Origin: Methanosarcina barkeri str. Wiesmoor
GTDB lineage: Archaea; Halobacteriota; Methanosarcinia; Methanosarcinales; Methanosarcinaceae
Length of the DNA: 64,000 nt
Assembly: GCF_000969985.1 (NCBI RefSeq)
Contig: NZ_CP009526.1
Coordinates: forward strand, 806,001 to 870,000
Direction of reading: 5' to 3'
Part shown: positions 6,335-31,578 of the stretch, piece after piece
How the letters are laid out: each line of letters begins with the position of its first letter
How positions within the stretch are numbered: position 1 is the first letter of the stretch
Program-made: the position numbers and the translations under genes
The notes under the pieces: generated by a model
What the model was told of the DNA's origin: nothing
The model's database searches: none
Seen by the model: the letters and a program-made list of their open reading frames with translations, nothing else

Positions 6335-7136
6335 TTTTTTTTCTCCGTCTGTTACAGGGCTTTCAAACCGGTAAATCCGTCTTTATTTAAATCTTCAGAT
6401 CACTTTTACTTTGACAATACTGAACGTAAATTTCACTATTATACGTCCAGGCAAGCAACAGGGTTTTTCAATTCCTGTTGAACTGGATCTGCCTTTTGAA
6501 TGAAATAGCTTCGAAACAAGTGTTTTGAAACAAGTGTTTTTCTTCTGCAGTACGGTTTCAATGTCTTTTTAGTTGAACGGCTTCAATGTCTTTTTATTTA
6601 AGCTTCCTTTTTAATTATTTAAAAAATAATGCAGCTCGCTCTTGATTAAGGCATTTCAATTCATATTTTAGTGAATTTTGTTTTCGAATAGTACATATAT
6701 CTATCCGTCGAGTGGTATATTTCTTAGCCTGCAATTCTCATTTGCTAAAAGTGATAAAAGGAATAAGGAAATTTGAAACAGTATAGGAGAATATGAAAAG
6801 TAATAGAAAATTGTCTCAGTTTCTATTCAGAGAGTTCTATCTGTGAATATATTAACAAGATTTTTTATTAACAAGACTTTTTATTAACAAGATTTTTAAG
6901 TTGCATTAACCGCAGGCAGAGAAACGGATAATGACAGTTTGTACATTATCAGAGGTAAGTATGATAAAGTGAATATATAAAAAGTGAAAACGTATTGATT
7001 TATACATAACATTGATCTATATCTAGCATTGATTTACACGTAGCATTGACTTGCATATAGCGTCGATTTATACATACCATCTGCATACGCAATATCATTT
7101 AGTTAAGGGTTAACACATCGTTATTGGGCGGATATA
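6335..7136. repeat. intergenic region with short tandem repeats
   Basis: No gene seen in 800 bp. Around 6856-6898 a 14-15-base unit (TTATTAACAAGAC/TTT) repeats about three times. At 6990-7080 a roughly 20-base unit (ATTGATTTATACATAGC with variants) repeats about five times, just upstream of the small ORF at 7137. Confidence 0.6.
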
Positions 7137-7310: not shown

Positions 7311-7920
7311 ATATATTAAAATTGTTTATTGTCAAAAATAGGATTCTTATGTTTTAACCCGATTTATATATAATATTTTAAAAGTTCTACAGATCTAAAG
7401 TTCTGCAGATAGTTTCTGGATTTTTCAAATTCTTCATTTATTCTGCACAAGCGGCTTTTGGTCTAAAGCGGTTTTTCGATGACAATCGTGCTAGAAGGAG
7501 GTCTAATTTGTCCTTTAAGCTCTTTATCTTTTCATCCTGATCTTCAACCAGTATATATGAAAGTCAAGCATTAGATCCGCATGTAAACAGAGAAAGGTTT
7601 AGAGACGAATGGCTTGAATAAAAAATGAGTGAATAGGATTCAAAAAGAGCAACAGACGACGGAAATAAATCCTTAACCGATGACGAATAATATGCTTTTA
7701 TATGTGTACTTCTTTGGTTTTCTCTCACCAGATAATACCTACTGAGGTCATTTTAAAATCTCTATCCATAATTGAGTTCTATAATCTATTTTTTTCAGAT
7801 TAGGATTATCGGGGTTCAGGTAGTTCACTAACTCAAGCAATTAATCTAATTCCTCTAGTTATTAATCGAACTTCTCATAAATTTATCTGGTATACCGAGT
7901 TTTCTTAATTTCCTCTCTTA
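7311..7920. other. intergenic, nothing recognised
   Basis: AT-rich sequence with no convincing ORF, RNA or repeat. Confidence 0.4.
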
Positions 7921-7925
7921 CTACT

Positions 7926-8390: not shown

Positions 8391-8633
8391 TACTACAGGC
8401 CAGCCAGTATTTTAGTTTTAGTATATTTTGCTCGCGATTTGGCACGCCTGAGAAAATTAAATTAAATATTAAGAGGCTGAAAAGGCAGTATAAGTGAAGA
8501 AAATATCTAAAGTAATAAAAAACATAAAATGTAAAAAAGCAAAAAACAGCTGAAAGCAAAAAATAAAGAATTTAGGTTGATATATATTAAGTTTTTATTT
8601 TCCACTTGCTAATTTGCTCTTCACGCCATTTCT

Positions 8634-9392: not shown

Positions 9393-10307
9393 TTGAAAGA
9401 AGCTAATTCTCAAGCTTTGTTGGCATGCTTAGTAAATGTAAAATCCGCGTTTACCAGATTTTTCAGAGAAAAAACTGGATTTCCCAGATTCAAATCTAAG
9501 AAAAATTCTGTTCAATCATATCAAATGCCACAACATTATACCGTAAATTTTGAAAAGAGTCTTGTAAAACTTCCTAAGATTGGTGAAGTTAAAGCAATTC
9601 TTCACAGGCGGTTTGAAGGCACTCTGAAAACAGCAACCATATCAAAGACCTGCACTGGAAAATACTATATCAGTATTCTTGTTGAAGATGGAAAAGAACT
9701 TCCTGCAAAACAGGATTTTTCAGAATCTACTACAATAGGCATAGATGTAGGAATTAAGGATTTTGCAGTTCTTTCTACAGGTGAAAAGGTTGAAAACCCT
9801 AAATACTTGAAAAACTCTCTTAACCGGTTGAAAGTCCTGCAAAAAAGAGTAAGTAGAAAGGTTAAAGGTTCTAAAAATCGAGATAAAGCCAGACTGTTAC
9901 TTTCAAAACTCCACGAAAAAATTAGCAATCAGAGGAACGATTTCCAGCATAAACTCTCTTCTAAACTTATCAGCGAGAACCAAGCTATTGCGTTGGAAAC
10001 TCTGAATGTAAAAAGTATGCAGAAAAATCATTGTTTAGCTCAGTCTATAAGTGATTCTGCATGGAGTAGCTTTGTTATAAAATTAGAATACAAAGCAGAA
10101 TGGTTAGGGAAAACTATCCTGAGAATTGGACAGTTTGAACCCTCATCTAAACTTTGTAGTGTTTGCGGATATTATAATTTAGATTTGACATTAAAAGATA
10201 GAGAATGGGAATGTCCTGATTGTAATACAAAACATGATAGGGACATTAATGCTGCAATCAATATCAAAAAATTCTCACTTCAAGATCAAAATTTTATAGT
10301 TATTTGA
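9393..10307 (+). CDS. tnpB: TnpB RNA-guided nuclease (5' frameshifted)
   Basis: TnpB is the IS605 nuclease related to Cas12. The RuvC-like active site is complete: the first Asp in TIGIDVGIKDFAV, the Glu in AIALETLNVKSM and the last Asp in HDRDINAAINI. A four-Cys ribbon (CSVCGYYN...CPDC) lies between the last two. The open frame uses TTG 9393, but coding sequence in the same frame runs upstream to about 9201 (SLYRIYPNKDQKRLIKVHFG). ATG 9196 reads MLK and would join that frame if the AAAA run at 9201 had one more A. The protein has therefore probably lost its N-terminal wedge domain by a one-base deletion. Confidence 0.85.
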   Translation: MKEANSQALLACLVNVKSAFTRFFREKTGFPRFKSKKNSVQSYQMPQHYTVNFEKSLVKLPKIGEVKAILHRRFEGTLKTATISKTCTGKYYISILVEDGKELPAKQDFSESTTIGIDVGIKDFAVLSTGEKVENPKYLKNSLNRLKVLQKRVSRKVKGSKNRDKARLLLSKLHEKISNQRNDFQHKLSSKLISENQAIALETLNVKSMQKNHCLAQSISDSAWSSFVIKLEYKAEWLGKTILRIGQFEPSSKLCSVCGYYNLDLTLKDREWECPDCNTKHDRDINAAINIKKFSLQDQNFIVI

Positions 10308-10427: not shown

Positions 10428-11559
10428 GTCTCTATTTTTATAGGCATTCCTTGCGAATAGAAATTTCAGCTATCTAATTCTCTGAATAATGTAGCAAATT
10501 CTGATCGAACATAGAGATCTGAAAATGCAGAGAACGCAGAGTGTGTAAAAAAATTAAAAATATATACATACTAAAGAAAATGGAAAACTTAAAGCTGGAT
10601 AAAACCAACTATACAAAATTGAAAACTGTGTTTATTTCTCCCTTTATGCTTTATTATACTTTATTATACTTTATCATACTTTATTAGTTTCATAAATTTG
10701 CTAATTTTATTGTAATTCGAGTATTTCCAAGCAAAAAGCTTACAGCTGAAGAACAAAGTTGCTACACAGATAGACATAAACAACAATGCACATACTGAGG
10801 TTTGTATTTCGATTGGTGACGTCTTAGTTGCTCCTTTTTGTCTTCATATAATATTAAAAACGATTATTTTACATCCTTTTTAACATTTTCGGTACGTTTC
10901 TATTTTTAAGAGTTTCAAATCTGAGGGTTTGCCAAAATCAGTGAAAATGCTTTAAAACTATATTAAATGCCTATAATTCCCCTTTTAGCTACAAAATCAC
11001 ATTTAATGCCTTTTAAATCTCACCGTTTAATCTGGCTGAATACAAAATTCACTGATAAAACTTAAATCATATTATATATAGTTGGAATATTTATACTTTA
11101 TATGTTGGATAATTTATATTTTATATGACTTTTCACGTAAACTGTATGTAAATAGCAATAATGTATTGAATATTAAAATCGGGTTTTTTCCTTCATATTC
11201 TAATAATAGTCTTTTTAAAGGGCAAAAATGATCTAAAATTGCATTAAATTTATTTCAAATTTTTTTAAACAAATTTTTTTGCAAAACAGGCAGTTTTATC
11301 CAATGCCAGCAGGGTAGTTCCAAAAAAATTGTTTTAGTTCCTATCAAGCTGGTTCTTGCTCTCGAATATTCTCATTTTCCGGGTTATTTTTTATCTCTGG
11401 CAGGGTTGCAGTTTCTGCAGGTAATCATCTGATAAAGAATATTTCAATTTCGACTTTTTCCTCTTCTGTTAGCGGGCTCTGATGGGTGTAATACCTTCCT
11501 ATCTACAGTAAACCGCCGTTCTGGTTAATCGGGCGCGGTTCAAAGCTTCCTTATACCTT
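10428..11559. other. long intergenic region, no gene
   Basis: More than 1.1 kb of AT-rich sequence. A TTTATTATAC-type short repeat lies near 10647-10685 and TATATT/TTATAT-rich stretches near 11070-11130. No ORF with coding character was found. Confidence 0.5.
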
Positions 11560-12933: not shown

Positions 12934-13185
12934 TTAGAAAGTCCTTCCATTATTCGCATAAATTTCAAGCATCAGAAACCTGTTTGCAACAAATCCAAAT
13001 CCGTAAATATAGTTTTTAGAGAGCTCCACAAAATTAATTGTAAGATACTCAAAAGAAAGCATTCCACATAGGGAAAATACTATTAATGCGGTTCTTGCTT
13101 GAGACTGAGTTTTAAATTTTAACTCGAACGCCTGATCGTGATCTATCGTACCTTTTTTAATAGTGTCATTTGTCTTCTTGGTACA
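12934..13185 (-). pseudogene. start-less coding remnant
   Basis: An 84-codon open frame has clear coding character (DHDQAFELKFKTQSQAR, ALIVFSLCGMLSFEYL, YIYGFGFVANRFLMLEIYA). The upstream limit is a stop codon and there is no plausible start before an internal ATG. The N-terminus appears lost. No family is recognised. Confidence 0.35.
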
Positions 13186-13389
13186 CTAACAAAAGGAAAT
13201 GTACTTTTATTAAATTCCCGAAGCTAATTATTTTTTCAATAATCGTTTTTAGAAACTTTATTCAGGAACATAAATAAGTAACTCAGGTTAAAGTTATGCA
13301 ATTAATATTTTCAATCCCTCTCAAGGTATATATTTGGCAATTATTGCTCTCAAATACTCTTATATACAACTAACCATAAATGAAAATAT

Positions 13390-17348: not shown

Positions 17349-17459
17349 GTTTCAATTTTTGATTTAGTGGATCTTGCTCGAAAATCAATAAGAATAGACG
17401 GCTTTCCCGGATACTGCCCAGTGTTTCAATCCTTGTTTTAGTGGATCTTGCTCACGAAT
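17349..17459 (-). CRISPR. CRISPR relic 1: two 37-nt repeats, one spacer
   Basis: Repeats at 17349-17385 (decayed) and 17423-17459 (GTTTCAATCCTTGTTTTAGT, then GGATCTTGCTCACGAAT) flank one 37-nt spacer. Read on the minus strand the repeat ends ATTGAAAC, the crRNA handle of archaeal systems. Confidence 0.8.
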
Positions 17460-17548
17460 ATTATCTTCAGGCATGAAAAGATACTGGTCAATAAAATAGG
17501 TAATCTTTTGTGTTATTTTTGATAGCCCATATGTTAATAAAATAATTT

Positions 17549-17935
17549 TTATTGTTTGATGGTATGATTAATAATCCATTCTTCAATTTCAGCCGGCTTC
17601 ATCTCATTTTCAGTCGCTGCAATCTTGACTATAAATTCTATCGTTTCTTGTGGAGTAGATGTAAGTGTATACCCACTATCCTCAAGAACAAAATTCATTG
17701 CTTCGTATCCTGTTCTTTTATTTCCGTTAAAAAACGGATGTCTTGAGACAATGGTATAAACTACAATTGCAGCATTTTGAAAAACGGTATTAGATTCCTT
17801 TATCATATATTCAAACAGTAACTCTAATGTAGCAAGAGATCTAATTGCAGGTGTATAATCGGCAGGATTCTCTTCTTTGTCATAGTCAATTACTCGTTGA
17901 TGAATTTTTAAGACGTCAATTAAGCTAATCAACAT
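17549..17935 (-). CDS. Doc/Fic family toxin
   Basis: A 128-residue death-on-curing type Fic protein. The active-site motif is HPFFNGNKRTG (His66), matching HxFx(D/N)GNKRxx. Doc toxins phosphorylate elongation factor Tu, while Fic relatives AMPylate. The compact length fits Doc. The gene starts one base after the stop of the upstream ORF, which has the size and position of its antitoxin. The pair lies between CRISPR repeat relics. Confidence 0.85.
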   Translation of the reverse strand: MLISLIDVLKIHQRVIDYDKEENPADYTPAIRSLATLELLFEYMIKESNTVFQNAAIVVYTIVSRHPFFNGNKRTGYEAMNFVLEDSGYTLTSTPQETIEFIVKIAATENEMKPAEIEEWIINHTIKQ

Positions 17936-17936
17936 A

Positions 17937-18188
17937 TCACTTTCTTCCGAGTGCGTCTAAGATCTCTTTGTCTTCTATGAGTTTCCTATCCAACCATGCA
18001 TCGAAATCTTTGACATGTGATTCTCTTCGTTCAGTGTTCTCTTCTTTTGGGAACATTGGTTTATACTCTGCAGTTTCTTTAACTTTAACAATGAGCCGTT
18101 TGATAATGGAATTATAAGACTCGTTTTCTGTGATCTTAAATTCTTTAAGTGATTTCTTTACATCTGGATCAATGGCTATAGTAGACAT
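17937..18188 (-). CDS. putative antitoxin of the Doc pair
   Basis: An 83-residue protein. The N-terminus (MSTIAIDPDVKKSLKEFKITENESYNSIIKRLI) resembles ribbon-helix-helix DNA-binding antitoxins. The tail (SHVKDFDAWLDRKLIEDKEI) is acidic and helical and probably binds the toxin. The stop lies one base before the toxin ATG, so the two are co-translated. RHH antitoxins usually repress their own operon; a TATA-like TATTATAATATG lies just upstream. Confidence 0.7.
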   Translation of the reverse strand: MSTIAIDPDVKKSLKEFKITENESYNSIIKRLIVKVKETAEYKPMFPKEENTERRESHVKDFDAWLDRKLIEDKEILDALGRK

Positions 18189-18265
18189 ATATTATAATAT
18201 GTTATAACAGAATATCAACATATGTATCATTTTTCCAGACACCCCACAAAACTCAAAACATCCCT

Positions 18266-18518
18266 GTTTCAATCCTTTTTTTAGTGGATCTTGCTCGCGA
18301 ATCTCTCAATTTTCATCTGTCTCAACCCTATCGAGTTTCAATCCTTATTTTAGTGGATCTTGCTCGCGAATGGTTATTAGGAGGAAGAAATGAACAGATA
18401 TTATCTTGATTTCAATCCTTATTTTAGTGGAAGCTACCTCTCGACTCAGGAAAAATTTCTTCGAAAAGGAGGAAATGCAAAGTTTCAATCCTTATTTTAG
18501 TGGAAGCTACCTCTCGAC
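18266..18518 (-). CRISPR. CRISPR relic 2: four repeats of two types
   Basis: Repeats occupy 18266-18302, 18335-18371, 18409-18445 and 18482-18518, with spacers of 32, 37 and 36 nt. All share the first 22 bases (GTTTCAATCCTTATTTTAGTGG-type, one G-to-A change). The first two then read ATCTTGCTCGCGAAT, and the last two AAGCTACCTCTCGAC. The second half has been exchanged or diverged as a block. Confidence 0.85.
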
Positions 18519-18626
18519 AGTCTACAGGGTCGTTTTCCCTTATTTACAGCAAATCCTCAGGTAACTTCAACTCTGAAAAACAGTATTAAGCGACTACATT
18601 AAGCGGCCATATTAAGCGGCTATTTT

Positions 18627-18758
18627 TTACTTGAGCGATATAATTTTAAAAAACCTGCTAAAATTTTCAGGACCATGTCCGTATAGCTTTATTTCATCCA
18701 CCCATGCATCTATTTTTGTTTCGTTGCTTCCGGGATAAGTCATTGTATTACGAATCAT
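18627..18758 (-). pseudogene. C-terminal gene fragment downstream of GNAT
   Basis: This frame reads as a real protein end: ETKHETFGRFHMIRN, TYPGSNETKIDAWVDEIK, YGHGPENFSRFFKI, then stop. It overlaps the end of the acetyltransferase gene in another frame without its own clear start (ATG 18758 is possible). It is probably a truncated cargo gene that came with the GNAT/DUF1330 pair. Confidence 0.4.
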
Positions 18759-18790
18759 GTGAAAACGGCCGAAGGTTTCATGTTTTGTTT

Positions 18791-19357
18791 CTAATGACCG
18801 GCGGAGAGAAATTCGTTTTTCAGCAGGCTATACACCTCAATATCGGTGAAACGGTCCCCGGTTAGCAGTTCTCCATCCCGTTCAATACCTTCAAAATGGA
18901 ATCCGAGGCGTTGAGGTATGCCTTTGCTGGGGAAGTTCCCCACCGCACATCTAATTTGAACCCGGTTGATATTCATTTCTTCAAAGGCAAAATGCATCAC
19001 GGCCGTAACCGAACTGGTGATGATACCTTTTTTTTGACACGGTTCCGAAAGCCAGTACCCGATTTCCGCTTTACGGTTCAGTTTGTCGGTATTCTTGAAG
19101 CCGATCAACCCGGCAAAATCACCCTTATACCGGATTACAAATACAAAATCCCCTTTTTCGGCAGGGACAGCAAGTACCGAACGGATATACTTCTCCGAGT
19201 CCGACACATCTCTGGTAAACGCAACAAACGGCAGCCATTTACCCAGGTAATCCCGCTGCCTGTCGATGGTAGTGAACATATCGATGGCATCCGAAAGTTC
19301 CAGTTGTTTAAGTTGGATATCTTCCGTTACGATGATGGTTTTTACAAGTTCTTTCAT
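18791..19357 (-). CDS. GNAT N-acetyltransferase (RimJ/RimL type)
   Basis: A 188-residue acetyltransferase. Features are LKQLELSDAIDMF at the N-terminus, FAGLIGFKNTDKLNRKAEIGYWL (strand 4) and a QKKGIITSSVTAVMHFAF acetyl-CoA loop region, then NINRVQIRC...NFPSKGIPQRLGF. The family acetylates N-terminal amines of ribosomal proteins or small molecules; the substrate is unknown. Base composition is visibly richer in G+C than flanking genes. The gene sits between two CRISPR repeat relics with the DUF1330 gene, which suggests horizontal transfer. Confidence 0.85.
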   Translation of the reverse strand: MKELVKTIIVTEDIQLKQLELSDAIDMFTTIDRQRDYLGKWLPFVAFTRDVSDSEKYIRSVLAVPAEKGDFVFVIRYKGDFAGLIGFKNTDKLNRKAEIGYWLSEPCQKKGIITSSVTAVMHFAFEEMNINRVQIRCAVGNFPSKGIPQRLGFHFEGIERDGELLTGDRFTDIEVYSLLKNEFLSAGH

Positions 19358-19406
19358 GATTCTTTTTTAGTATGTTGATCCGTAAGAAAAATATTTTCCT
19401 GACAGG

Positions 19407-19700
19407 TTAATCGTTGTCTATAAAAAAGGCACTGGATACCGTGCTGTCTTCTCGCAGGTGCTTGACAGCCCTGTATTCGGGAGAATTAAAACAACTTTCA
19501 GCCTGTGCAAGGGAGTCAAAGCCGATGACGATAGAACGTTCCGGCTTAATGGTGCCGCAAAAGGCGGTGATTTTGTTACTGCGTGCGAGATATTCGCCTC
19601 CGTGCTGCTCCACAATGGCCTTAACCGCTGCAATATATTCGGCATAGCGGATAGGGTCGTGCACCGATTCGATCAGAATAACCATTACTGTTTTTTTCAT
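19407..19700 (-). CDS. DUF1330 family protein
   Basis: A 97-residue ferredoxin-like alpha/beta-barrel protein. It begins KTVMVILIESVHDPIRYAEY and contains HGGEYLARSN and ERSIVIGFDSLAQAESCFNSPEY, the DUF1330 pattern. Function is uncharacterised; the fold resembles small monooxygenases. AGGAGG lies five bases before the ATG. GC-rich like the adjacent acetyltransferase and probably co-acquired with it. Confidence 0.85.
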   Translation of the reverse strand: MKKTVMVILIESVHDPIRYAEYIAAVKAIVEQHGGEYLARSNKITAFCGTIKPERSIVIGFDSLAQAESCFNSPEYRAVKHLREDSTVSSAFFIDND

Positions 19701-19750
19701 CGTTTCCTCCTTTTGTTAAAGCAGAAAAATTATACCATCTTCTTTTGGCG

Positions 19751-19787
19751 GTTTCAATCCTTGTTTTAGTGGATCTTGCTCACGAAT
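19751..19787 (-). CRISPR. CRISPR relic 3: solitary 37-nt repeat
   Basis: This single repeat is identical over 37 bases, and in the next base, to the one at 17423-17459. It has no neighbour repeat. It lies 57 bp from the cas3 stop. Confidence 0.8.
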
Positions 19788-19844: not shown

Positions 19845-22070
19845 TTAAAAATCTTTGTTAAAAACTCCCATTATTGTGTCTTCTGAGTCCAACAATAGAC
19901 CCAGTTCAGAATTGTAGTCAACACTTGCAAATATCATATTAGAGTCAATCTGGATCTGGTTATTAGTTTTTAGTTTATTGTATTGGCCAAGATTTATCGA
20001 GACAACGTATTTCATAGCTTCAAAATATTTTTTATTTTCAATTTCCTCAAGATATTCAAGTTTAAACTGATCAGGAACAACTTCAACTGATTGATAAAGG
20101 TTATAAAATTCGTCCTGATTTTCTTTTTCATTTATGAAAGGAACAATTTGACTATAGAACTTAGAAAAGGTCTTTTTCACCATTTCAAAGGATTCCAGAT
20201 CCGAACCCTGATATCCACTAGAATAAACTTCGTCCACAAGTTCTTGAATTCTGCTTTCTCCTAAAACACTCTCTTTACTTAACAGCTCTAGACTTTTAGA
20301 GACTAATTCCTGATTTTTGTAAACATATTTGTCTTTTTCAGATCCTTCTTCAAAAACATACACTGGCTTGATTATTTTCTCTTCCCATCCTTTTCGATTA
20401 ATCCTTCCAAACCTCTGAATAAGTGCATCGAGGGGAGCCGGTTCAGAAAATAGTACATCATAATCAATATCAAGGGAAACCTCTATTGCCTGTGTACCGA
20501 CTAAAAGGTTTAGGTTCTTCAATTTTGATTCAATTTTTTCCCTGTCTCGTAGAATAAATCTTCCATGGATTAAGCCTGAATTTTCTATTCCTTGAGAGAG
20601 CAGTTTGTATATTTTTTGGGCTTGAGCGACGGTATTACAAACAACAAGTACCTTTTTCTTATGATTGAGTTCTTTTCTGATCAGATCCAAATTATCTAAA
20701 ATGCCTCCTTTAAGAACAGAAACTCTATGCCTTGTAAACTCATCCAGTTCAAGTTCTGTAAAAGAGATCTCCGTTTCGATTTCCAGATCCTGCTTAAACA
20801 TTTCTTTAAGAAAAGAAGGAAGAGTGGCAGACATGATTAAGAAATTTGCTTGATAACCTTTTAGGATCTTGAGTGTCTCAAGGATCAGAGCAGTCATATG
20901 AGCATCATATGCGTGAATTTCATCCATTATGAACAGAGCACTGGACATTTCTGCAAGATTCTGCTCGAAGCCTCGAATTCCAAACATGGGTTTAAGAACC
21001 TGATGTGGAGTCGCTATTTTATATGGTCTGTATATCTTATTGGTAAGGCTTTTTACTTGCTTTGCTTTTTTAGTTGCGGTCAAGTAATCTTCATTCTCAA
21101 AGCTTTGATATAAATAGTACATGGCTTTTCCATGCTGGATACCAATCAATTCAGGATCTTTAAAATCCTTTTGAAGTCGTTTATACATTGCATTGATACT
21201 CGCAGTATAAGGAAGCAAGTAAAAGACCCTTTTAGATCTGCCAGGATTCTGGTTTGCATAACTCCAGAACAATGCAGCTTCTGTTTTCCCAGTTCCAGTA
21301 GGTGCAATTAGAAAGGCATCACCTTTTGTTTCTAATGATTGACTCTGAGTTTTTCTCAGCTCGGAGAAATTATATACAGCTCTTATGTCTTCAATTCCGG
21401 ATAATAAGCTGTACTTTCCCCCAGATGCCAGATGATCACAGGCGGTTAAAAATCCCTTGAGGAATATCCCGTACTTTCCGTGTAAAACTGTTAACTCATC
21501 ATTATCAAGCTGTTTTTTGTAAGGTTTTATTGAATTTTTGTAAGGATCAACCATTTCCTCAATTGATTTTATTTCTTTAAATTTATTTAGCTCAAAACCC
21601 AGATACTTCTTACTAATTTCTGGAATTTTCCTCTGAATCTCTCTTAATTCTTCAAAGTTAGGAGTTAATTCCTGTAGCTTCTCAATATATCTTTTTTTAG
21701 CAAGAGGATTTGAGTCTATCCGATATTTTTCCCGCAAATAAGACACATCTTTATGATGCGTGATTATTGCTAAAGCTATAGCTTCTCTTGATTCATTTTC
21801 GTATTCAAGCCCAGAAGTGAAGCCAGCAGAGAGAACTTCATGCCTGTATTTCCACTTCTCTTCTTCGCAGAGAGATTTTTGGAATCCTGATGCAGCTTTC
21901 CCAAAATCATGAAAAAAAATAGAGTAGAAGAGATGCTCCCAGAAATCCGGGACTCCACAGATTTGAGGAGTTTCAGGATATGCATCTTTTATGCTTTTAA
22001 AGACCTTAAGGGCGTTTTCTGTATGTTCCAGTAAAGTCTCATCCGGGTCCTTTTTTGCAAGTATGACCAT
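19845..22070 (-). CDS. cas3: Cas3 nuclease-helicase (type I-B)
   Basis: A 741-residue HD-nuclease/helicase fusion that degrades Cascade-bound DNA. HD residues are His54-Asp55 (FFHDFGKA), His105-His106 (ITHHKD) and Asp212-His213. The helicase has Walker A APTGTGKT (residues 256-263), DEIH (383-386), the motif III-like SATLP and QRFGRINRKG (motif VI). GGGAGGAAAT before the ATG is a good SD. It is the last gene of the interference operon cas8b-cas7-cas5-cas3, 22 bp after cas5. All catalytic motifs look intact. Confidence 0.95.
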   Translation of the reverse strand: MVILAKKDPDETLLEHTENALKVFKSIKDAYPETPQICGVPDFWEHLFYSIFFHDFGKAASGFQKSLCEEEKWKYRHEVLSAGFTSGLEYENESREAIALAIITHHKDVSYLREKYRIDSNPLAKKRYIEKLQELTPNFEELREIQRKIPEISKKYLGFELNKFKEIKSIEEMVDPYKNSIKPYKKQLDNDELTVLHGKYGIFLKGFLTACDHLASGGKYSLLSGIEDIRAVYNFSELRKTQSQSLETKGDAFLIAPTGTGKTEAALFWSYANQNPGRSKRVFYLLPYTASINAMYKRLQKDFKDPELIGIQHGKAMYYLYQSFENEDYLTATKKAKQVKSLTNKIYRPYKIATPHQVLKPMFGIRGFEQNLAEMSSALFIMDEIHAYDAHMTALILETLKILKGYQANFLIMSATLPSFLKEMFKQDLEIETEISFTELELDEFTRHRVSVLKGGILDNLDLIRKELNHKKKVLVVCNTVAQAQKIYKLLSQGIENSGLIHGRFILRDREKIESKLKNLNLLVGTQAIEVSLDIDYDVLFSEPAPLDALIQRFGRINRKGWEEKIIKPVYVFEEGSEKDKYVYKNQELVSKSLELLSKESVLGESRIQELVDEVYSSGYQGSDLESFEMVKKTFSKFYSQIVPFINEKENQDEFYNLYQSVEVVPDQFKLEYLEEIENKKYFEAMKYVVSINLGQYNKLKTNNQIQIDSNMIFASVDYNSELGLLLDSEDTIMGVFNKDF

Positions 22071-22092
22071 ATTTCCTCCCTGTGTCTACCAA

Positions 22093-22716
22093 TCAATTCT
22101 TATGAAGCCAGATTGCCCAATCCATTTCAGGATCGAATAAACACTTTTCTGGATAGACGAAAAACTCATCCATCAAAAGATATGGTTTCACACCTACAGC
22201 TTTTCTGGGAATTGCATCAGTAAAGTGAGTTGGAAGAGCCTGTACAAGTCCATATGCACCTTTAATTCCAAAAGGAAGGATTGTTTTTCCCAATCTCTTT
22301 CCAGCTTCTTCTGCAAGCTCTAATTCCTTTATTTCGGAGACTTTCGCCAAATCTCCAGATCTACCAAAGAGAAGAGGGTGTTGAGGCTTACGGAAATATT
22401 TCTCAAAATCGGGCCTGTCAAGATAAAGATATAGTTCTGGGTTGTACAAGAACTCTCTTTTTACTACATTTGATTTTGCAGAAAGTCCCGGACTTAACTC
22501 GTAGATTGTTTCAAGGTCTACTGCTTTACTCTCAAAGTCAAATACATAACCAATATTTACATCTTCAGGAACAGTTAACTCTCCTTTTGCTGCTGAAATC
22601 AATCCATAAATGGTACTTAGGGGAGGGGCTGGAAGAGTAGGCTGAAATCCGCTTATAAAACCCGGATATCTAAAAGATGCAGTCCAGCCCTCAATTTTGA
22701 TCCTTAAGACTTTCAT
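22093..22716 (-). CDS. cas5: Cas5 (type I-B)
   Basis: A 207-residue Cascade subunit that caps the 5' handle of the crRNA. The N-terminal RRM strand and loop (VLRIKIEGWTASFRYPGFISG...QPTLPAPPLSTIYGLISAAK) is diagnostic for Cas5. The gene overlaps the cas7 end in the sense that GAGGTAAG serves both as cas7 stop region and cas5 SD. Length is typical of the Tneap (Cas5t) group. Confidence 0.92.
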   Translation of the reverse strand: MKVLRIKIEGWTASFRYPGFISGFQPTLPAPPLSTIYGLISAAKGELTVPEDVNIGYVFDFESKAVDLETIYELSPGLSAKSNVVKREFLYNPELYLYLDRPDFEKYFRKPQHPLLFGRSGDLAKVSEIKELELAEEAGKRLGKTILPFGIKGAYGLVQALPTHFTDAIPRKAVGVKPYLLMDEFFVYPEKCLFDPEMDWAIWLHKN

Positions 22717-22717
22717 C

Positions 22718-23719
22718 TTACCTCATCAGCCCGGGAATCGTTTGAACGAAGGAATCAACCATTTCGTTTATAGAGCCGTAAATTACTTTTCGATTATTTC
22801 CTGCATATTTTTTAGTTAGATCTTTAAAAACAGGGTCAAGATCTTCCATGAAACCTTTACGTCTTCCAATATAAATATCAGTTAACAGGATATCTGAATA
22901 ATCGGAAATCACTTCTTCCAGAGCTGCCACGTCTACAAGAGCTTCTCCCTTTTCTTCTCTGACAAGATTCATAAACAGGTGATTTCCTCCGTCTATCCCT
23001 GCGAGTATGAGAAGTTTTGGGGAGACATCAGTGAGATGGGAAGTTTGCTTTGCACCACCTGCAAGGTATGGAAGAGCTTTCAGTACATCTTTTGCTCTCT
23101 TTTCTCTGACTTCAGTAGACATTACCCATTTATCTTCGATTTTCTCTGCCCCATTCTTTTCTGCAATTGTTTCCAGTTCTGGATACATGTTTCTGTATCC
23201 CGTTTTCTCACTCTTGTAAAACACGCCGACATTGTCAAGATCAAGCGAAAAGATTCCCTTCAAAACCGTAGAGTAGAATTCGTGTTCATAAGGAACGGGA
23301 TCTCCTTCATGGCGAGCCATCACTCCAAAATCGTCTGTAGGAACCTGACCAACGATTGAAACAAGAGGCGAATTCTTCAAGACAGAAAGTCTTGTAACAG
23401 TACCACCGTCTGCCTTTTTGAGAGCTCTCATGTATCCGAATACATCATCATCATCGTATTCGACAGGATTGGCACTTGTAAACGCTATTTTCTTTTCTCG
23501 TTCTATAGGAGAAATGTTCCAATTGAATTTTTCTTCAAGAGTAGTCCGCCACCAGTACCTGAGAGCCTGCCCTGAAACATAGGGATATACTTTCTTCCCT
23601 TTTCTGATTGCTTTTACTCTGACAATATTTTCGGTCCTTTCACTGCTGTCATTTCCTGCGTTATTGAGTGCTGAATGGGGAGCATCGATAAGCATGAAAC
23701 CATTTACTGTGTGTGTCAT
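22718..23719 (-). CDS. cas7: Cas7 (Cst2/DevR family)
   Basis: A 333-residue backbone subunit of Cascade that coats the crRNA spacer. Features are VNGFMLIDAPHSALNNAGND, then VRVKAIRKGKKVYPYVSGQALRYWWR, a signature of Cst2/DevR Cas7. Two in-frame ATGs exist at 23725 and 23719. GGAGG seven bases before 23719 supports the shorter form. The start lies against the cas8b stop, so the two genes are translationally coupled. Confidence 0.92.
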   Translation of the reverse strand: MTHTVNGFMLIDAPHSALNNAGNDSSERTENIVRVKAIRKGKKVYPYVSGQALRYWWRTTLEEKFNWNISPIEREKKIAFTSANPVEYDDDDVFGYMRALKKADGGTVTRLSVLKNSPLVSIVGQVPTDDFGVMARHEGDPVPYEHEFYSTVLKGIFSLDLDNVGVFYKSEKTGYRNMYPELETIAEKNGAEKIEDKWVMSTEVREKRAKDVLKALPYLAGGAKQTSHLTDVSPKLLILAGIDGGNHLFMNLVREEKGEALVDVAALEEVISDYSDILLTDIYIGRRKGFMEDLDPVFKDLTKKYAGNNRKVIYGSINEMVDSFVQTIPGLMR

Positions 23720-23721
23720 AA

Positions 23722-25092
23722 TCATTCCTCCTCAAGTAATCCCATTTCTTCTTCGTCGCTAGAAATAAGTTTAGACTTCAAGGTATCATGTTCAACCAAC
23801 CAGTTGTGTAGATTTTCATAAATTCTGAAGAGCAAAAGATCCTGAGTCTCTCTCCAACCCAGATTCCCTTCAGGAAAGAGATCGTCCATAAACTCTTCAA
23901 GAGTAAAAAGCGGGTCTTGAACACTTCGATTTATTCGGTCTTTTTCGATAATCCTCAATTGATTCCTGAATGATGCAAAATTTCTTGCCATTTCAAGCTG
24001 ATTTAATCTTTTTATGTTTTGAGTATCTTTTATGTACTCTGAGATGCTGTCCCCAACTCTTTTGAGTGTATCCAATCTCTTACTACCCATGTTTCTTACC
24101 TCCTTTAAGTAAAATTCCAATAGTTCCCAATCTCCGTATACCTGCCGGTTTTTGTTATCAATAAAATATTTCACAATGGAGCGGCCTTTTAATAGATTTA
24201 TATAAACAGAGTTCCCTCTGTTCTTGTAGTCGTCTCCTTCCTTAATTTTATTCCAATTAAAATAGCCCCTTCTGACAATTTTTTTCCATTCTGTAAACCA
24301 TTCAGGGTCTTTAACACAAGCCAAAAATCTGAACACAGGGGTTGGAACTCTATATATATCAAGATCAGGTCCCTGATTAAAATTTGTAAAATGATACATG
24401 TTTATAGAGGGATTTTCCTCAACCCAGTCTTCGTCGTACTGGATAATAATATCCTCAATTATATGAAAAAGAGCATTAACAGGATTTTTGTAACCTTCAT
24501 CAAAACAACCACTATAGCTATTTGCCAAAATCTGCCTTCGAATGTCCTTTACTGCCTTTTCTACCCAGTAATGCATGACCTTATTAGAATTGGAGTGGAT
24601 TAGCAAAAGTTTTCCACAGGCGTAAAAAACAAGAGGAGAAAATTGAACTGCAAGCGTACAGGCCGGACAGTAGTCAGCCCCTTTCTGACCATACGGAAAA
24701 AAGTTAATTAGTGTACCTGAACCTATTAAAGGAATTTCTGTTTTCGTCCTGGTTTGCTCTACATTATATTTTCCACAAGAGATACAGTTCCCCGATTTCT
24801 CTGATTTCTCCAGGGACTCAACCTGACCGATTAACTTCTCTAAAGACTCAAGCAGCTTTTTATCTTTATTTTTCACAGAAGGATTGGTAACCGCATTATT
24901 CGGAAAAACCGAATAAAGACTCTTTGACCATTTCAGACTCAAATATATAGGGATTACATCATGTGCTATCTTCTTTACATCTTCAATTTTTATATCTTCA
25001 GGCTTTTTTCTGCCTGACCACTCGCATATAGCCCAGATCCCAGAGTCTACAAAAGGATTTCCAGTAAATGTATAAAGAAAGCTTTGACTCAT
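23722..25092 (-). CDS. cas8b: Cas8b1/Cst1 large subunit
   Basis: A 456-residue large Cascade subunit, expected to recognise the PAM. A four-Cys zinc finger (CISC at 103-106, CPAC at 142-145) separated by a GSGTLINFFPYG motif is characteristic of Cst1/Cas8b1 of the Tneap subtype. The N-terminus (SFLYTFTGNPFVDSGIWAI) also fits. It is the first gene of the interference operon, beginning 137 bp past the leader-distal array end. SD is TTGGAAGT. The C-terminal tail is acidic. Confidence 0.9.
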   Translation of the reverse strand: MSQSFLYTFTGNPFVDSGIWAICEWSGRKKPEDIKIEDVKKIAHDVIPIYLSLKWSKSLYSVFPNNAVTNPSVKNKDKKLLESLEKLIGQVESLEKSEKSGNCISCGKYNVEQTRTKTEIPLIGSGTLINFFPYGQKGADYCPACTLAVQFSPLVFYACGKLLLIHSNSNKVMHYWVEKAVKDIRRQILANSYSGCFDEGYKNPVNALFHIIEDIIIQYDEDWVEENPSINMYHFTNFNQGPDLDIYRVPTPVFRFLACVKDPEWFTEWKKIVRRGYFNWNKIKEGDDYKNRGNSVYINLLKGRSIVKYFIDNKNRQVYGDWELLEFYLKEVRNMGSKRLDTLKRVGDSISEYIKDTQNIKRLNQLEMARNFASFRNQLRIIEKDRINRSVQDPLFTLEEFMDDLFPEGNLGWRETQDLLLFRIYENLHNWLVEHDTLKSKLISSDEEEMGLLEEE

Positions 25093-25229
25093 TATTTTAC
25101 TTCCAATTCTAGAAAAATCAACTTTAATTACAAAAGGAAAAATCTTATAAAAATATAGAAAGTCTTTAATAAGTAACTTCCCTTTTTCATCAAATAGAAA
25201 GAGTTAAATATTTCTTAAAAAGAGTCGTT

Positions 25230-28200
25230 GTTTCAATCCCTATAAGACCTGATTTTAACGCTTCATTATCCAGCCGCCGTATTCCTAAAATTTCTCTTGT
25301 TTCAATCCCTCTAAGGCCTGATTTTAACCGGAAACTTGTTTTAATCAGAAATGGGATGGTGAACATGTTTCAATCCCTCTAAGGCCTGATTTTAACCAGT
25401 TTTAAATGCCCCGCCTTTTGGTTTTCATAGTTTTTGTTTCAATCCCTCTAAGGCCTGATTTTAACGCAAGGATATATGACGAAAATTTGTAGAGATTATA
25501 TGTTTCAATCCCTCTAAGGCCTGATTTTAACTGTGAGGATATCATGCCAGCAGCGCCATTTGAAGATTGTTTCAATCCCTCTAAGGCCTGATTTTAACAC
25601 TAAGAAAATGAAAGAGATTTTCTTTGGTGAAACGTTTCAGTCCCTCTAAGGCCTGATTTTAACGAAAAAATGAATATCCCTTCTGGATCAAACAGAGAAG
25701 CGTTTCAATCCCTCTAAGGCCTGATTTTAACTTAAGCAGGTTGCCCCATACCCTACAGACTGAGATTGTTTCAATCCCTCTAAGGCCTGATTTTAACGTC
25801 TTCTTCGATTATCCATGGACTTAATCTTACCCGTTTCAATCCCTCTAAGGCCTGATTTTAACGCTAAAAAGCGGAAACATGATAATGATGCTCATAAGTT
25901 TCAATCCCTCTAAGGCCTGATTTTAACTTTTTTGCATTTCCAAATGGAAACCTTGGAAATTGCGTTTCAATCCCTCTAAGGCCTGATTTTAACATTTCCA
26001 TACAGATTTTCTGAATACCGCCATTTGATGTTTCAATCCCTCTAAGGCCTGATTTTAACCCCAACTGCTGAAGCAAATACTTTAGCCGTAGTCGTGTTTC
26101 AATCCCTCTAAGGCCTGATTTTAACGTTTCTACAAGATATCATGTCCTTGAAAGTTACGTGGTTTCAATCCCTCTAAGGCCTGATTTTAACCAGAGCGGA
26201 ATGAGTAACAGTACTTTGTATTATGCGTTTCAATCCCTCTAAGGCCTGATTTTAACTTGATATCTATTCGTTGAAGCGATGGAGAACTTGAGGGTTTCAA
26301 TCCCTCTAAGGCCTGATTTTAACTGTTTCACACCAAGGGAGTGTTTTCCATCCGAATATGTTTCAATCCCTCTAAGGCCTGATTTTAACTGCAATTTCCG
26401 TAAAAGATATTCTCGATATTGCAATGTTTCAATCCCTCTAAGGCCTGATTTTAACAGTGCTGCTACTGTGTCTATAAATGGTTTATAACTAAGTTTCAAT
26501 CCCTCTAAGGCCTGATTTTAACAACTTATAGATTTTAAAGGGCTTCAAAAAGAATATCTGTTTCAATCCCTCTAAGGCCTGATTTTAACTATCTAACTAT
26601 TATTGAGCTGTCAGAAACATACACGTTTCAATCCCTCTAAGGCCTGATTTTAACGTATAGCTTAGACAGACAATCGTTTTTGTTTTTATGTTTCAATCCC
26701 TCTAAGGCCTGATTTTAACTATATAAAATTTCAAGTTGGGGTTAAAGAAGAGCACGTTTCAATCCCTCTAAGGCCTGATTTTAACCATATTTGACATTTT
26801 AGATATTAAATTCACAGATTCGTTTCAATCCCTCTAAGGCCTGATTTTAACAACACAGGAACCAGTAGAACAGGATCACCTAAATTGTTTCAATCCCTCT
26901 AAGGCCTGATTTTAACTTATAATTCATGAGTTTCTTATTTACTTTCTTTATATGGTTTCAATCCCTCTAAGGCCTGATTTTAACCTGCATTGCTCGTCCC
27001 TCCGATATCCCATGAATCAAGTTTCAATCCCTCTAAGGCCTGATTTTAACCGACTTAAGACCAAACACTCCACTAAAATCATCATTGTTTCAATCCCTCT
27101 AAGGCCTGATTTTAACAAAGTTTAGTTTTATTGCCAATCATCCTAATCCTCGTTTCAATCCCTCTAAGGCCTGATTTTAACACTGCTATGGGTGTGACTG
27201 CTGGGAGCCAATTAAACGTTTCAATCCCTCTAAGGCCTGATTTTAACATCCTAATCCTCCAGCATTCCTTGAATACTTAGTTAGGTTTCAATCCCTCTAA
27301 GGCCTGATTTTAACTCGTAAAAGATGCTTATATAAAAAGTGGATTTGATGTTTCAATCCCTCTAAGGCCTGATTTTAACAGAGTAAAAACCCCTTGAAAT
27401 CCTTCGGTAGCTGAGTTTCAATCCCTCTAAGGCCTGATTTTAACCAATTTTTTAAATCCGTACAATTGTTAGAATTATAGTTTCAATCCCTCTAAGGCCT
27501 GATTTTAACATTTTTCAATTGCTCCGCCGGTCACCGGTTGAACTCGTTTCAATCCCTCTAAGGCCTGATTTTAACACGTGTTGTACTCGGGAACTAAGAA
27601 GATTATTCCTAAAGTTTCAATCCCTCTAAGGCCTGATTTTAACTTTCCCACCCGTATTGTTTCACATCCGTCACATTCGTTTCAATCCCTCTAAGGCCTG
27701 ATTTTAACATTTATACTTATAATTCTAGGAATTATTATATATTGATGTTTCAATCCCTCTAAGGCCTGATTTTAACCTCTTATCCATACTGCTTCGTGTC
27801 TATGTCCAGGATAGTTTCAATCCCTCTAAGGCCTGATTTTAACATATTTTTAAGGTTCATATGTGTTGCTCCAAAAAAGGTTTCAATCCCTCTAAGGCCT
27901 GATTTTAACGATACTAACAGGTGTCTGTGCATCGAGTTTTGACAGGTTTCAATCCCTCTAAGGCCTGATTTTAACCAGACCCGCAGGCAACCCCGACTAG
28001 CTGCTTCCAATGTTTCAATCCCTCTAAGGCCTGATTTTAACAAGGGGCTTCTTGATGAAAGATTAAGACTCCTAGATTGTTTCAATCCCTCTAAGGCCTG
28101 ATTTTAACAGTATTTTGGGAGTTCGGGATATCCAGACTCAGAATAGTTTCAATCCCTCTAAGGCCTGATTTTAACTATCGTTTGCATTAAGAATATCAGT

Positions 28201-28572
28201 TATAGACACAGTTTCAATCCCTCTAAGGCCTGATTTTAACCTTTTGCGTGGATTCCGTCTGTTTCTCTCCATGCGGGTTTCAATCCCTCTAAGGCCTGAT
28301 TTTAACACTAAATCAGGTCCGCCTGTATGATCATATCTTGCATTGTTTCAATCCCTCTAAGGCCTGATTTTAACGTTCGAGATCAAATGATAGATTATAT
28401 TTTACTATTACGTTTCAATCCCTCTAAGGCCTGATTTTAACAAGGACAATACTTGCTGGATATATTTTTGATTCAACGTTTCAATCCCTCTAAGGCCTGA
28501 TTTTAACTTTCTTTTGCTAGCCAGTCCTGAATTTCAAGTTCAGTTTCAATCCCTCTAAGGCCTGATTTTAAC
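25230..28572 (-). CRISPR. type I-B CRISPR array, 51 repeats and 50 spacers
   Basis: A 30-nt repeat runs from GTTTCAATCCCT to CTGATTTTAAC on the + strand. Spacers are 35-39 nt. On the minus strand repeats end ATTGAAAC, the usual archaeal crRNA 5' handle, so the array is transcribed right to left like the cas genes. The leader lies between the array and cas2. The leader-distal repeat at 25230 is degenerate (CCCTATAAGACC for CCCTCTAAGGCC), as expected for the oldest end. One internal repeat near 25634 has TTTCAGTCCC. All others read identical by eye. Frames crossing the array are artefacts. Confidence 0.98.
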
Positions 28573-28881
28573 CAAGGAAATTTTCCCCGAATTTCAGATA
28601 AATTGGATGCTAAATCCTATCTCTAAAAAGAGTAAAATTCGGGCTTATATTGCTGTTTTTATGTGAGAATAGTTACATACGGTAAGATATAAAAGTATCT
28701 GTTTTTTAGGACAGATTCAACATGGGAATTCGGGGATTGTTCTTCTGGGAAAGTGTATATAAAGATCCCCGAAAGAAAATACAATTAATAATCAGCAGAG
28801 CGAATATCAAAAAGAAATATATAAAATAAGTTTTTGATTTAGCGTGTAGTCTCAATATAGGAGATTTGCAAGTATCAAGGC
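28573..28881 (-). promoter_or_regulatory. CRISPR leader and array promoter
   Basis: This is 309 bp of AT-rich sequence between cas2 and the first repeat. On the minus strand two TATA-like boxes occur: TTTATATAC (about 28755-28763) and TTTTATATC (28686-28694). The nearer would start transcription some 90 bp before the first repeat. Leader position is deduced from repeat orientation, the degenerate far end and cas2 adjacency. Confidence 0.75.
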
Positions 28882-29145
28882 CTAAATAATGTTGCTGATA
28901 TCCGCTTTTGGAGTTCCAAGGTTTTCAATCCCAAGGTACTTTTTATCTCTTGAGCTGTAGAATATAATGTGGTCCGAAGTCTCGTTAATTAGCTCCTTAA
29001 GCGTAGACTTAACTTTAAGGAGTTCGGCTTTTGTAAGTTCGCCTTCAAATACACTGTTCTGGACCCAATTCATATATTGTCTTAGAAAAGTTCTGACTTT
29101 GTTTACTCTGTCAACTCCCACATCATATACTATTACTACATACAT
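28882..29145 (-). CDS. cas2: Cas2 endoribonuclease-like adaptation protein
   Basis: An 87-residue ferredoxin-fold protein (MYVVIVYDVGVDRVNKVRTF) that dimerises between two Cas1 dimers during spacer integration. The conserved Asp is in VYDVG at residue 8, and NWVQNSVFEGELTKAEL follows. A GTG at 29154 is in frame, but GGTGGT lies just before ATG 29145, the family's usual start. The gene lies 36 bp after cas1 and next to the leader. Confidence 0.95.
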   Translation of the reverse strand: MYVVIVYDVGVDRVNKVRTFLRQYMNWVQNSVFEGELTKAELLKVKSTLKELINETSDHIIFYSSRDKKYLGIENLGTPKADISNII

Positions 29146-29181
29146 GTTTACCACCTTAACTTAGCAACTTTCACTAACAGA

Positions 29182-30183
29182 TTACCACCACATAACCAGA
29201 GGCTTATATTCCTCTGCTCCCAAAACATGCTTTGAAAGCTTATATAGCTCAAGCCGTATAAGCCGTTTGTAAGAGACACTCTGGTTCAGACCTTTGTGTT
29301 TGATAGTGGTCTTAAGTTTTTCATCGTATTCTTTAAGGAAGATTTTCTTCCCTTTTTCGCTAAGCAGCATATTCCCTATCTCTCCCCGGAAGCAGTTGCC
29401 GCCAAGCATGTTTTTGTTGACCAGTTTGAAAATGATCCTGTCTACCAGAATAGGCTTGAAAATCTCACTAACGTCAAGAGAAAGAGAAAATCTTCGCTCA
29501 AAAGGCTCATGCAGGTATGAAATTGTAGGATTAAGTTGAGTATTATAAATCTCGGAGAGAGTAGTGGAATAGACTAATGAATTTCCGAAACTTATGAGTG
29601 TATTCATTTTGTTTTCTGGTGGTCTTCGGGTGCGTTTTATTATTCTGTATTCCTCTGGGAAAATCTCATCAAGTGCGTTATAATAAAGCTCTCGGATTTT
29701 CCCTTCAGTTCTCATCATCGAAGGGACTGCTTTTGCACCCTCAAGGCAGGAAAGTTCTGACTCTATAGAAGTTGCATAACTTTCGATTGCTTCCTGAATA
29801 TCCTCTCTATTCCTTGCATAGTACCTGAGATTCCTCAGGATATTCCCACAGGCACCCTCAATAAATTTTCCAGCCAGATAGAGTCGTCTTTCAGGGTTAA
29901 GGTAATGTTCTGCCTGTTGAATGACCAGATCTCCGCTGATAAGAGTTTCCCGTGGATACATTGAGCCCTCATAGAAACCGTAATAATTGAAAAAATGAAT
30001 TGGAATACCCTCTTTAGAAAGGTAAGAAACGACCCCTGATGAAAAAGAAAGGTTTCCATAAGCAAAGATCGAACTGATTTTATTTATAGGAAGGATCTTC
30101 CTTCCCTCTTTATTCTCAAAATAAACCGTATTTTCTTTTCTCTTTAAAATTCCGTCCTGTAGAATATAAAAATCTTCTCTTAT
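29182..30183 (-). CDS. cas1: Cas1 integrase with apparent ATA start
   Basis: A 333-residue spacer integrase. Active-site regions are intact: Glu in [13 protein letters not shown] and His in [19 protein letters not shown] with the following acidic residues. An internal ATG (29961) begins only at MYPRETL, but the frame continues upstream through [18 protein letters not shown] and [16 protein letters not shown], the normal Cas1 N-terminal beta domain. The only codon at the right place is ATA (30181-30183), seven bases after GGAGG. No ATG, GTG or TTG lies between it and the in-frame upstream stop. A G-to-A change of the start codon, or real AUA initiation, is implied. Confidence 0.9.
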
Positions 30184-30224
30184 TTTTTTACCTCCTCTAG
30201 CATTTCATTAATTTTTTTGCTTTT

Positions 30225-30824
30225 TTATACTCTATCTCTATCCCCGCAAAAGCAGAACTCCTTGTAGGCGCATTTTGAACAGATTCTCTTGCGCTCTGGT
30301 GGAGGCATGGAGCCAAGAACTATATTTTTGATGTTTTTGATATCTTTTTCAGTGATGGCTTCATCCTCCGGGGTTAACTCTATTTTTTCAGTTTTATTCA
30401 AAAGAGGGTAATTTAAGACTCCCACAGCATCGATGCCTTTTTTCTTGAGAAAGTAAAGATAAAACAAAAGCTGAGCCCGATCGGCAACATCGATTTTTTT
30501 GCTTTTCTTTACTTCATGAATCTCAAGTTTCTTTCCGGTTTTAACAAAATCAATACTTATACCGTCAATAGTAATATTTTTTGAATTTTTCTTGTAGCGA
30601 TCTTCATGTAGCATTTTTCCTATGGCGACATTATCGCTTTCTTTCTCAAGGCTGATATTATGAGAAAAAAGCCAGAGCTTTGTCTCACATACATGATAGT
30701 AATTGACTTTAACTCCGGTAATTCGAACTGATCCCAGGAAAACTTCTGCATGAATGCTTCTCTCGGGTTCAGATAGAGACCCATCGAAAGATTTCTCTTT
30801 CTCCTTAGTAGTCTCATCACTCAA
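30225..30824 (-). CDS. cas4: Cas4 exonuclease
   Basis: A 199-residue RecB-like 5'-3' exonuclease that trims prespacers and helps select the PAM. The iron-sulfur cysteines are Cys46 (YYHVCETKLW) and Cys182, Cys185, Cys191 (ICSKCAYKEFC). The nuclease motif is ISIDFV ... LEIHEVKKSKK (Asp, Glu, Lys). The SD is AAGGA before ATG. It lies 13 bp after cas6 and 41 bp before cas1, so it is part of the adaptation operon. Confidence 0.93.
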   Translation of the reverse strand: MSDETTKEKEKSFDGSLSEPERSIHAEVFLGSVRITGVKVNYYHVCETKLWLFSHNISLEKESDNVAIGKMLHEDRYKKNSKNITIDGISIDFVKTGKKLEIHEVKKSKKIDVADRAQLLFYLYFLKKKGIDAVGVLNYPLLNKTEKIELTPEDEAITEKDIKNIKNIVLGSMPPPERKRICSKCAYKEFCFCGDRDRV

Positions 30825-30837
30825 TCCTTCGACCTCC

Positions 30838-31578
30838 TTACTTTTGTTTCACTTCCAGAACATTGACACATCCGAACCCCATAGCATTTTTCTCACCCAA
30901 CCCCGCATCATACGCAAACTGTAATAGTTCTGGATTTGCGGACAGGTACAGATTCATCAAACTGCAACGCCTGTAATTGTTTTCTATTTTTACTCTTTTG
31001 GGTTTGAAGCTTGGGATCTTAATAACTTCAAAAAAGTCCTTATCGATTTTTGATCCATAGAATTCTTCGTACCTGGCAACCAGATTTTTATGCAGGTTTT
31101 CATGGAACTTTGAGTCTTTTGGATACAGGTCAAACTCTACCAGCCTGTCATCCTGTTTTCTCTGGGTTTTTAAATAGATCGGAGAAAGAGTCCTGAAGGT
31201 ACATGTATCCGAAAAATGTATTAAAGGAAGAACTTCAATTCTTTCAATTACGAAATTGGACTTATTTCCATTATTTCCAAGGAAAAATTCTGGTTCAATC
31301 AAAAGCCCTTCTGCAAAACTCCTTATGAACTCAGGATCGGGAGATGACAGGAAAAAATGAGCTTTCTTGAAATTTAATCCATTTTTTTCGGGAATTTTGT
31401 CTTCAAGAATAAGATTGGAAAACGTGTAGAATTTGAAGCCTTTTTTACTGTGAATCTTATTTGCAAGCTCTATATTAGAAGTAGCTAACTTCGAATATAA
31501 CATTGAGGCAAGACCATACTGATAATCGTAATGGAGTGGCTCGGGAGATATTTTTCTGACACTTACCCTGCATCTCAT
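30838..31578 (-). CDS. cas6: Cas6 crRNA endonuclease
   Basis: A 246-residue RAMP endonuclease that cuts the repeat to leave the eight-base 5' handle. The C-terminal glycine-rich loop GLGEKNAMGFGCVNV near residue 225 is diagnostic. The N-terminal ferredoxin fold starts MRCRVSVRKISPEPLHYDYQ, with possible catalytic His in this region. First gene of cas6-cas4-cas1-cas2. A TATA box 23-30 bp before the ATG and the lack of an SD suggest a leaderless message. Confidence 0.92.
   Translation of the reverse strand: MRCRVSVRKISPEPLHYDYQYGLASMLYSKLATSNIELANKIHSKKGFKFYTFSNLILEDKIPEKNGLNFKKAHFFLSSPDPEFIRSFAEGLLIEPEFFLGNNGNKSNFVIERIEVLPLIHFSDTCTFRTLSPIYLKTQRKQDDRLVEFDLYPKDSKFHENLHKNLVARYEEFYGSKIDKDFFEVIKIPSFKPKRVKIENNYRRCSLMNLYLSANPELLQFAYDAGLGEKNAMGFGCVNVLEVKQK

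Follow-up and report, generated by a model that had tools for sequence, protein, structure and literature searches.

Positions 17349-19787 of the window hold the decayed tail of a CRISPR array in which genes are bounded by repeats and were probably reshuffled at these repeats, an arrangement that is real and recurrent. The window is the whole stretch of DNA analyzed, 64,000 nucleotides in length (C2:806001-870000), and belongs to a Methanosarcina genome of 4.9 Mb in two contigs, which is G000 in the genome comparison. From sequence comparison we consider it likely that the tail belonged to an old type I-B array with genes between its repeats, that the units so bounded were reshuffled and duplicated at the repeats, and that the remainder of the locus was replaced by a module with a 30-nt repeat.

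CRISPR repeats in the window

The region had first been annotated with seven copies of one 37-nt repeat. All seven are present on the + strand, but those at 18409 and 18482 represent a second type. Four of the seven are near copies of the 37-nt type A repeat GTTTCAATCCTTGTTTTAGTGGATCTTGCTCACGAAT, one is degenerate, and the two type B repeats, which end in GTGGAAGCTACCTCTCGAC, agree with type A only in their first 23 nt. The repeats and the more distant relics are:

6465..6689, + strand, two strongly degenerate type A relics (6465 and 6653), 11 and 9 mismatches, chance expectation at most 0.02
11331..11367, + strand, strongly degenerate type A relic, 12 mismatches, chance expectation 0.05
17349..17385, + strand, degenerate type A repeat, terminal (trailer) copy beside a SAM-methyltransferase gene, 6 mismatches to the consensus
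17423..17459, + strand, type A repeat, same sequence as the second-array consensus of this genome
18266..18302, + strand, type A repeat variant, 2 mismatches to the consensus
18335..18371, + strand, type A repeat variant; homology to G029 starts here (BLAST start 18334) and the genomes diverge leftward
18409..18445, + strand, type B repeat, 3' half GGAAGCTACCTCTCGAC
18482..18518, + strand, type B repeat, start of the homology to G002
19751..19787, + strand, type A repeat, 57 bp ahead of the cas3 3' end of the type I-B module

Within the pieces the repeats are separated by spacers of 32-37 nt, so that near-identical direct repeats with uniform, unique spacers, as expected of CRISPR, were found. 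Using a limit of 3 mismatches, 4 copies were found in the real sequence and none in 100 shuffles. With up to 13 mismatches, 11 forward matches were obtained in the first 25.1 kb of the window against a chance expectation of 0.18 from 60.4 kb of shuffled sequence, while the same limit yielded no reverse-strand repeats in the first 25.1 kb and no repeats at all between 28.7 and 64 kb. A chance origin of the repeats is excluded. The degenerate copies at 6465, 6653 and 11331, together with a partial degenerate repeat at 13904, indicate that the relic reaches to the left of 17349-19787. An IS605-family OrfB/TnpB-like gene (window 9393-10307) was observed near these degenerate repeats. Elsewhere in the window, 49-nt inverted repeats with 92% complementarity lie about 3.5 kb apart (51098-54742), and three tandem copies of about 113 nt are followed by many repeats with a 10-nt period (2253-3177).

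The repeats at 17423 and 19751 are indeed identical, as had been noticed before. This needs no special event, since both equal the consensus of the array in the equivalent slot of G003 and of the second array of G000. A degenerate trailer copy like that at 17349 occurs at the equivalent position in G003 and G029 (L103 4765 and L100 4768). Type B repeats build arrays of their own in other Methanosarcina, and a search of the G000 genome within the mismatch limit used found the copies at 18409 and 18482 only. Usually, the end sequence of a repeat tells the direction in which its array is transcribed. As the repeats end in ATTGAAAC when read on the opposite strand, transcription would by this rule run leftward, with the leader side being the cas side.

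Probable replacement of the native cas genes

Between the repeat at 19751 and the right flank, the locus is occupied by another CRISPR system:

19845..31578, - strand, type I-B module (Cas8b1/Cst1 type) filling the slot: cas3, cas5, cas7, cas8b, 30-nt array, cas2, cas1, an unassigned ORF (30225-30824), cas6
25230..28580 (end approximate), + strand, array with 51 copies of the 30-nt repeat, part of the module

Comparing the flanks, the left side (window approximately 13-17.3 kb, cupin to SAM-methyltransferase) matched G003 and G029, and the right side (from 31.7 kb) matched G003, G029 and G004. The equivalent slot holds 121 type A repeats in G003, 65 in G029 and 99 in G004. Beside the slot array, cas7, cas5, cas3, cas6b, cas1, cas2 and cas4 were found in G004, and cas3, cas6b and cas1 in G029; these genes were named by resemblance, backed by cas6b and Cas3 matches, and for G003 the assignment consists of the cas6b and Cas3 matches. 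The Cas3 family native to the slot array of these relatives is absent from the G000 genome, and the cas genes adjoining the 37-nt repeats there are not matching ones; they belong to the 30-nt repeat. Both observations mark the region as the relic of a locus and not as a complete one. The repeats at 17349-19787 are thus predicted to have formed the tail of a type I-B array with the 37-nt repeat, at the end away from the leader. In six of the seven genomes having the 30-nt-repeat module (G000 and five others), a type A repeat lies 21-355 bp from the 3' end of its cas3. This is explained most simply if the module took the place of the old locus on its leader half, with the tail probably left behind.

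A second array with the same repeat

An intact array of 18 repeats with the identical repeat lies at C2:4403633-4404900, 3.58 Mb from the window feature, and in its vicinity are cas6b and a type III-C operon that includes Cas10c. The repeat type is therefore not dead in G000. It had been asked whether cas genes for the 37-nt repeat exist elsewhere in the genome, and cas6b and type III-C genes do lie beside this array; the concern that the genome might have no other array of this type is removed likewise. Likewise, M. mazei combines a type I-B with a type III-C system, and their leaders are similar (PMC7465815). The array is also neighbored by an oligopeptide ABC-transporter cluster and an IS transposase gene. 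One of its spacers, TTGATCTTTGTTTTCTCCTTTTACTCGTAATATC, is present twice (C2:4404244-4404277 and 4404608-4404641), a sign of duplication by recombination. Between cas6b and the array, a reverse-transcriptase-like fragment was observed (L029 13705-14232), with similar ones near arrays in G006, G009, G022 and G029.

Genes between the repeats

Two gene pairs had been reported to lie between the repeats, and both were confirmed, at 17549-18188 and 18791-19700:

17549..17935, - strand, Doc/Fic-family toxin of 128 aa (TIGR01550 DOC_P1, E=5e-36; PF02661), motif HPFFNGNKR
17937..18188, - strand, antitoxin of 83 aa, VapB-like (DUF7557; PF24434 above the cut-off, PF02697 just under)
18791..19357, - strand, GNAT acetyltransferase (PF13302, E=8e-24)
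19407..19700, - strand, DUF1330 protein (PF07045, E=3e-20)

The GC content of the GNAT/DUF1330 pair is 0.46-0.47 versus 0.39 for the window, and the GNAT DNA is 93-95% identical in G029 and G002. The toxin carries the Doc/Fic motif HxFxx(A/G)NKR. The partner protein had no match to a Phd-type antitoxin in the profile search and matched DUF7557/VapB-like models instead. The two genes are a predicted type II toxin-antitoxin (TA) pair of the death-on-curing family with a VapB-like antitoxin. Between close copies, dN/dS was 0.06-0.38 for the toxin and 0.03-0.17 for the antitoxin, so that both genes are under purifying selection where this is measurable. An AT-rich palindromic stretch upstream of the antitoxin start is common to the homologues, and the pair thus probably has its own promoter.

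Out of 11 copies of the TA unit, nine are bounded by repeats on both sides (G000, G004, two in G006, G008, G011:C114, G019, G027, G029). In G019 and G011, a strongly degenerate repeat (8 mismatches) forms one of the two boundaries. Strains with the same genes and no repeats had been named as evidence against the first-pass interpretation; two genomes have such a repeat-free copy (G011:C169, G024:C201), which means that the TA family can do without an array, while the nine other copies are repeat-bounded. In a tree of the TA sequences, in which most branches are weakly supported, repeat-bounded and free copies were incompletely separated.

Gene-sized segments bounded by repeats were not restricted to this pair. 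Allowing up to 8 mismatches per repeat, 67 of them were counted in the loci examined, with relic clusters mostly consisting of 1-2 repeats. Their contents include an RNB exonuclease (five loci), UbiA (four), an acyltransferase (three), a methyltransferase, a HicAB pair (G006) and genes of no named family; in G011 a DDE transposase gene lies between repeats. Regarding orientation relative to the pre-crRNA, 33 families were solely co-directional and 18 solely opposite; general gene co-orientation may contribute to these raw counts, and the co-directional bias is suggestive. Inserts of 179-581 bp were found inside the long arrays of G007 and G011, several with ORFs in pre-crRNA direction that start 20-83 nt past a repeat, and at least one has its own TATA-like stretch. 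These inserts may be early stages of gene entry. The G011 inserts had no match in phage records or in three viral-contig scans. A search of plasmid records gave no match. At L145 (G011:C91) 4528-8576, a long array contains five segments of 179-483 bp between good repeats, each with a small ORF in pre-crRNA direction; three of these are members of a single family (about 70 aa). At L141 (G007:C1:2977500-2997000) 6241-6793, near-perfect repeats enclose a segment of 553 bp that carries a small ORF and is flanked on the inside by two direct repeats, similar to each other and about 40 bp long.

Why a TA pair should reside at this place might be explained by addiction, with the pair anchoring the array tail because a deletion from repeat to repeat across it would kill the cell. 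We regard this as possible, though short of probable. The pair is intact in all nine repeat-bounded copies at the low dN/dS values given above (0.03-0.38), in G004, G029, G006 and G019 it adjoins long arrays at their trailer end, a HicAB pair likewise lies between repeats in G006, and a related role has been proposed for vapBC pairs in Sulfolobales (PMC4390879). However, the RNB exonuclease, UbiA and acyltransferase genes lie between repeats in the same manner, a TA pair at the trailer end would not block deletions within the array, and G000 lost the native cas genes yet kept the pair.

Probable recombination at the repeats

As judged from sequence comparison, recombination at repeats is well supported as the probable process. 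The first-pass annotation had offered it as one of two options, and this option gained support. The order of the units is permuted: methyltransferase-TA-GNAT in G000, methyltransferase-GNAT-TA-array in G029 and TA-methyltransferase in G027. Homology between genomes ends at repeat starts, namely at 17423 (G027), 17422 (G004), 18334 (G029) and 18481 (G002), and a duplication of the TA unit in G006, 99% identical, starts one base off a repeat start. The leader-side TA boundary is less exact, with homology to G027, G004 and G029 stopping near 18223, about 40 bp before the repeat at 18266. Repeat clusters collapsed precisely: where G029 has repeat-spacer-repeat-spacer-repeat, G002 has just one repeat between the same outer flanks, and G004 versus G027 is similar. 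A cassette with a gene of 182/186 aa (87.5% DNA identity) is bounded by repeats at the same ends in G011, where it lies in the slot beside UbiA, and in the G019:C26 array, which itself adjoins an oligopeptide ABC-transporter cluster resembling the one beside the second array of G000. A private variant is common to the two repeats that enclose the TA unit in G027 and G004, and repeats of types A and B adjoin each other in the window as well as in G029.

The other option was that a second CRISPR system had been broken up by insertions. The region is a remnant of a second locus, but the repeat type is still intact elsewhere in the genome, and random insertions are not the whole story, given the genes between repeats throughout the genus and the one cassette in two different arrays. 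Transposons or illegitimate insertions entering a non-functional array at random, with the repeats as passive bystanders, are an unlikely explanation overall. They would fit the DDE transposase gene in G011, the IS transposase gene close to the second G000 array, and a short inverted-end element inside a repeat of G001, which means that plain insertion also contributes. They do not fit collapse to exactly one repeat, the cassette shared by two arrays, permuted order and homology ending on repeat starts, nor the large segments between good repeats inside the long arrays of G007 and G011. Furthermore, no direct repeats around the TA unit are stronger than the CRISPR repeats themselves, and inverted repeats around the TA and GNAT units are short and imperfect in the four regions scanned, where old transposon ends could have decayed. 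The G001 element is located at L151 (G001:C1:2366000-2385500) 13087-13328, has the inverted ends GAGCCTATCCGAAAAGT, and is flanked by ACTAA on both sides.

For the shuffling of repeat-bounded units we propose the following course, based on the shared slot, the repeat-bounded units, their permuted order, homology ends on repeats, precise cluster collapse and the cassette in two arrays. Genes would have come to lie between repeats at the tail end, remote from the leader, of an old type I-B array with the 37-nt repeat. Recombination between direct repeats would then have deleted spacer blocks, leaving genes separated by 1-4 repeats, and would have moved and duplicated repeat-bounded units within and between arrays, presumably by homologous recombination as the enzymatic route. 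In the G000 lineage, the remaining array, the leader and the native cas genes have probably been replaced by the type I-B module with 30-nt repeats, leaving a tail with the Doc/VapB-like TA unit and the GNAT/DUF1330 unit. Selection, perhaps together with addiction for the TA pair, would keep the genes.

An extended reading holds that Methanosarcina arrays are gene-cassette platforms, with repeats as exchange sites, cassettes moving between arrays, and some G007/G011 units read from the pre-crRNA and trimmed by Cas6 at the repeats; this we regard as quite doubtful. In some of these inserts, an ORF in the sense of pre-crRNA transcription begins 20-45 nt behind the leader-side repeat. Control of the TA genes by guide RNAs from the small repeat-spacer-repeat pieces is highly improbable: degenerate 1-2-repeat units beside a toxin do resemble creA genes (PMC8501985, PMC9458426) and G000 has an intact cas6b with an identical repeat, but the pair already has a protein antitoxin, and spacer seed matches to the TA promoter region were no more frequent than in shuffled spacers (at least 8 nt, 5' end, guide sense; 0 of 207 spacers except two inside the promoter region itself; within 3.5 kb of the TA start, nine loci; the rest as in shuffles), so that CreTA/CrePA-type control was not supported by the seed matches.

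Comparison with known systems

The array tail has the appearance of a site at which genes are stored and shuffled. This would suggest a role of CRISPR arrays in holding and exchanging genes, in addition to spacers, in a genus with genetics available. It also offers natural examples of how an array collapses, cassettes are exchanged and a cas module is replaced, and a testable case for the idea that TA pairs stabilize CRISPR loci. In integrons, gene cassettes form units bounded by recombination sites within an array. The likeness is an array of genes bounded by such sites; unlike in integrons, the bounding element here is a CRISPR repeat, and the space within several units would suffice for a promoter of their own.

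Recombination between CRISPR repeats is known to rearrange arrays (reviewed in PMC8047081), with repeat-bounded deletions and duplications of spacer units and a conserved trailer end as here. In the present case, whole genes are units as well, and two different arrays have one cassette in common. In Sulfolobales, vapBC pairs are interspersed in cas gene cassettes, and a contribution to the maintenance of CRISPR-Cas systems was proposed for them (PMC4390879). Both cases have type II TA pairs within a CRISPR locus, with a proposed role in keeping it, but vapBC pairs lie among cas genes, whereas the Doc-type pair is placed between repeats of the trailer end and recurs within the genus. CreTA/CrePA (PMC8501985, PMC9458426, PMC12737573) resemble the locus in that a toxin lies next to degenerate ectopic repeats. 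The pair described here has a protein toxin as well as a protein antitoxin, and the seed test gave no guide match to the TA promoter. A limited literature search found no description of genes as repeat-bounded units in CRISPR arrays. Array recombination and TA pairs in CRISPR loci are already known, and repeat-bounded gene units are a variant of both.
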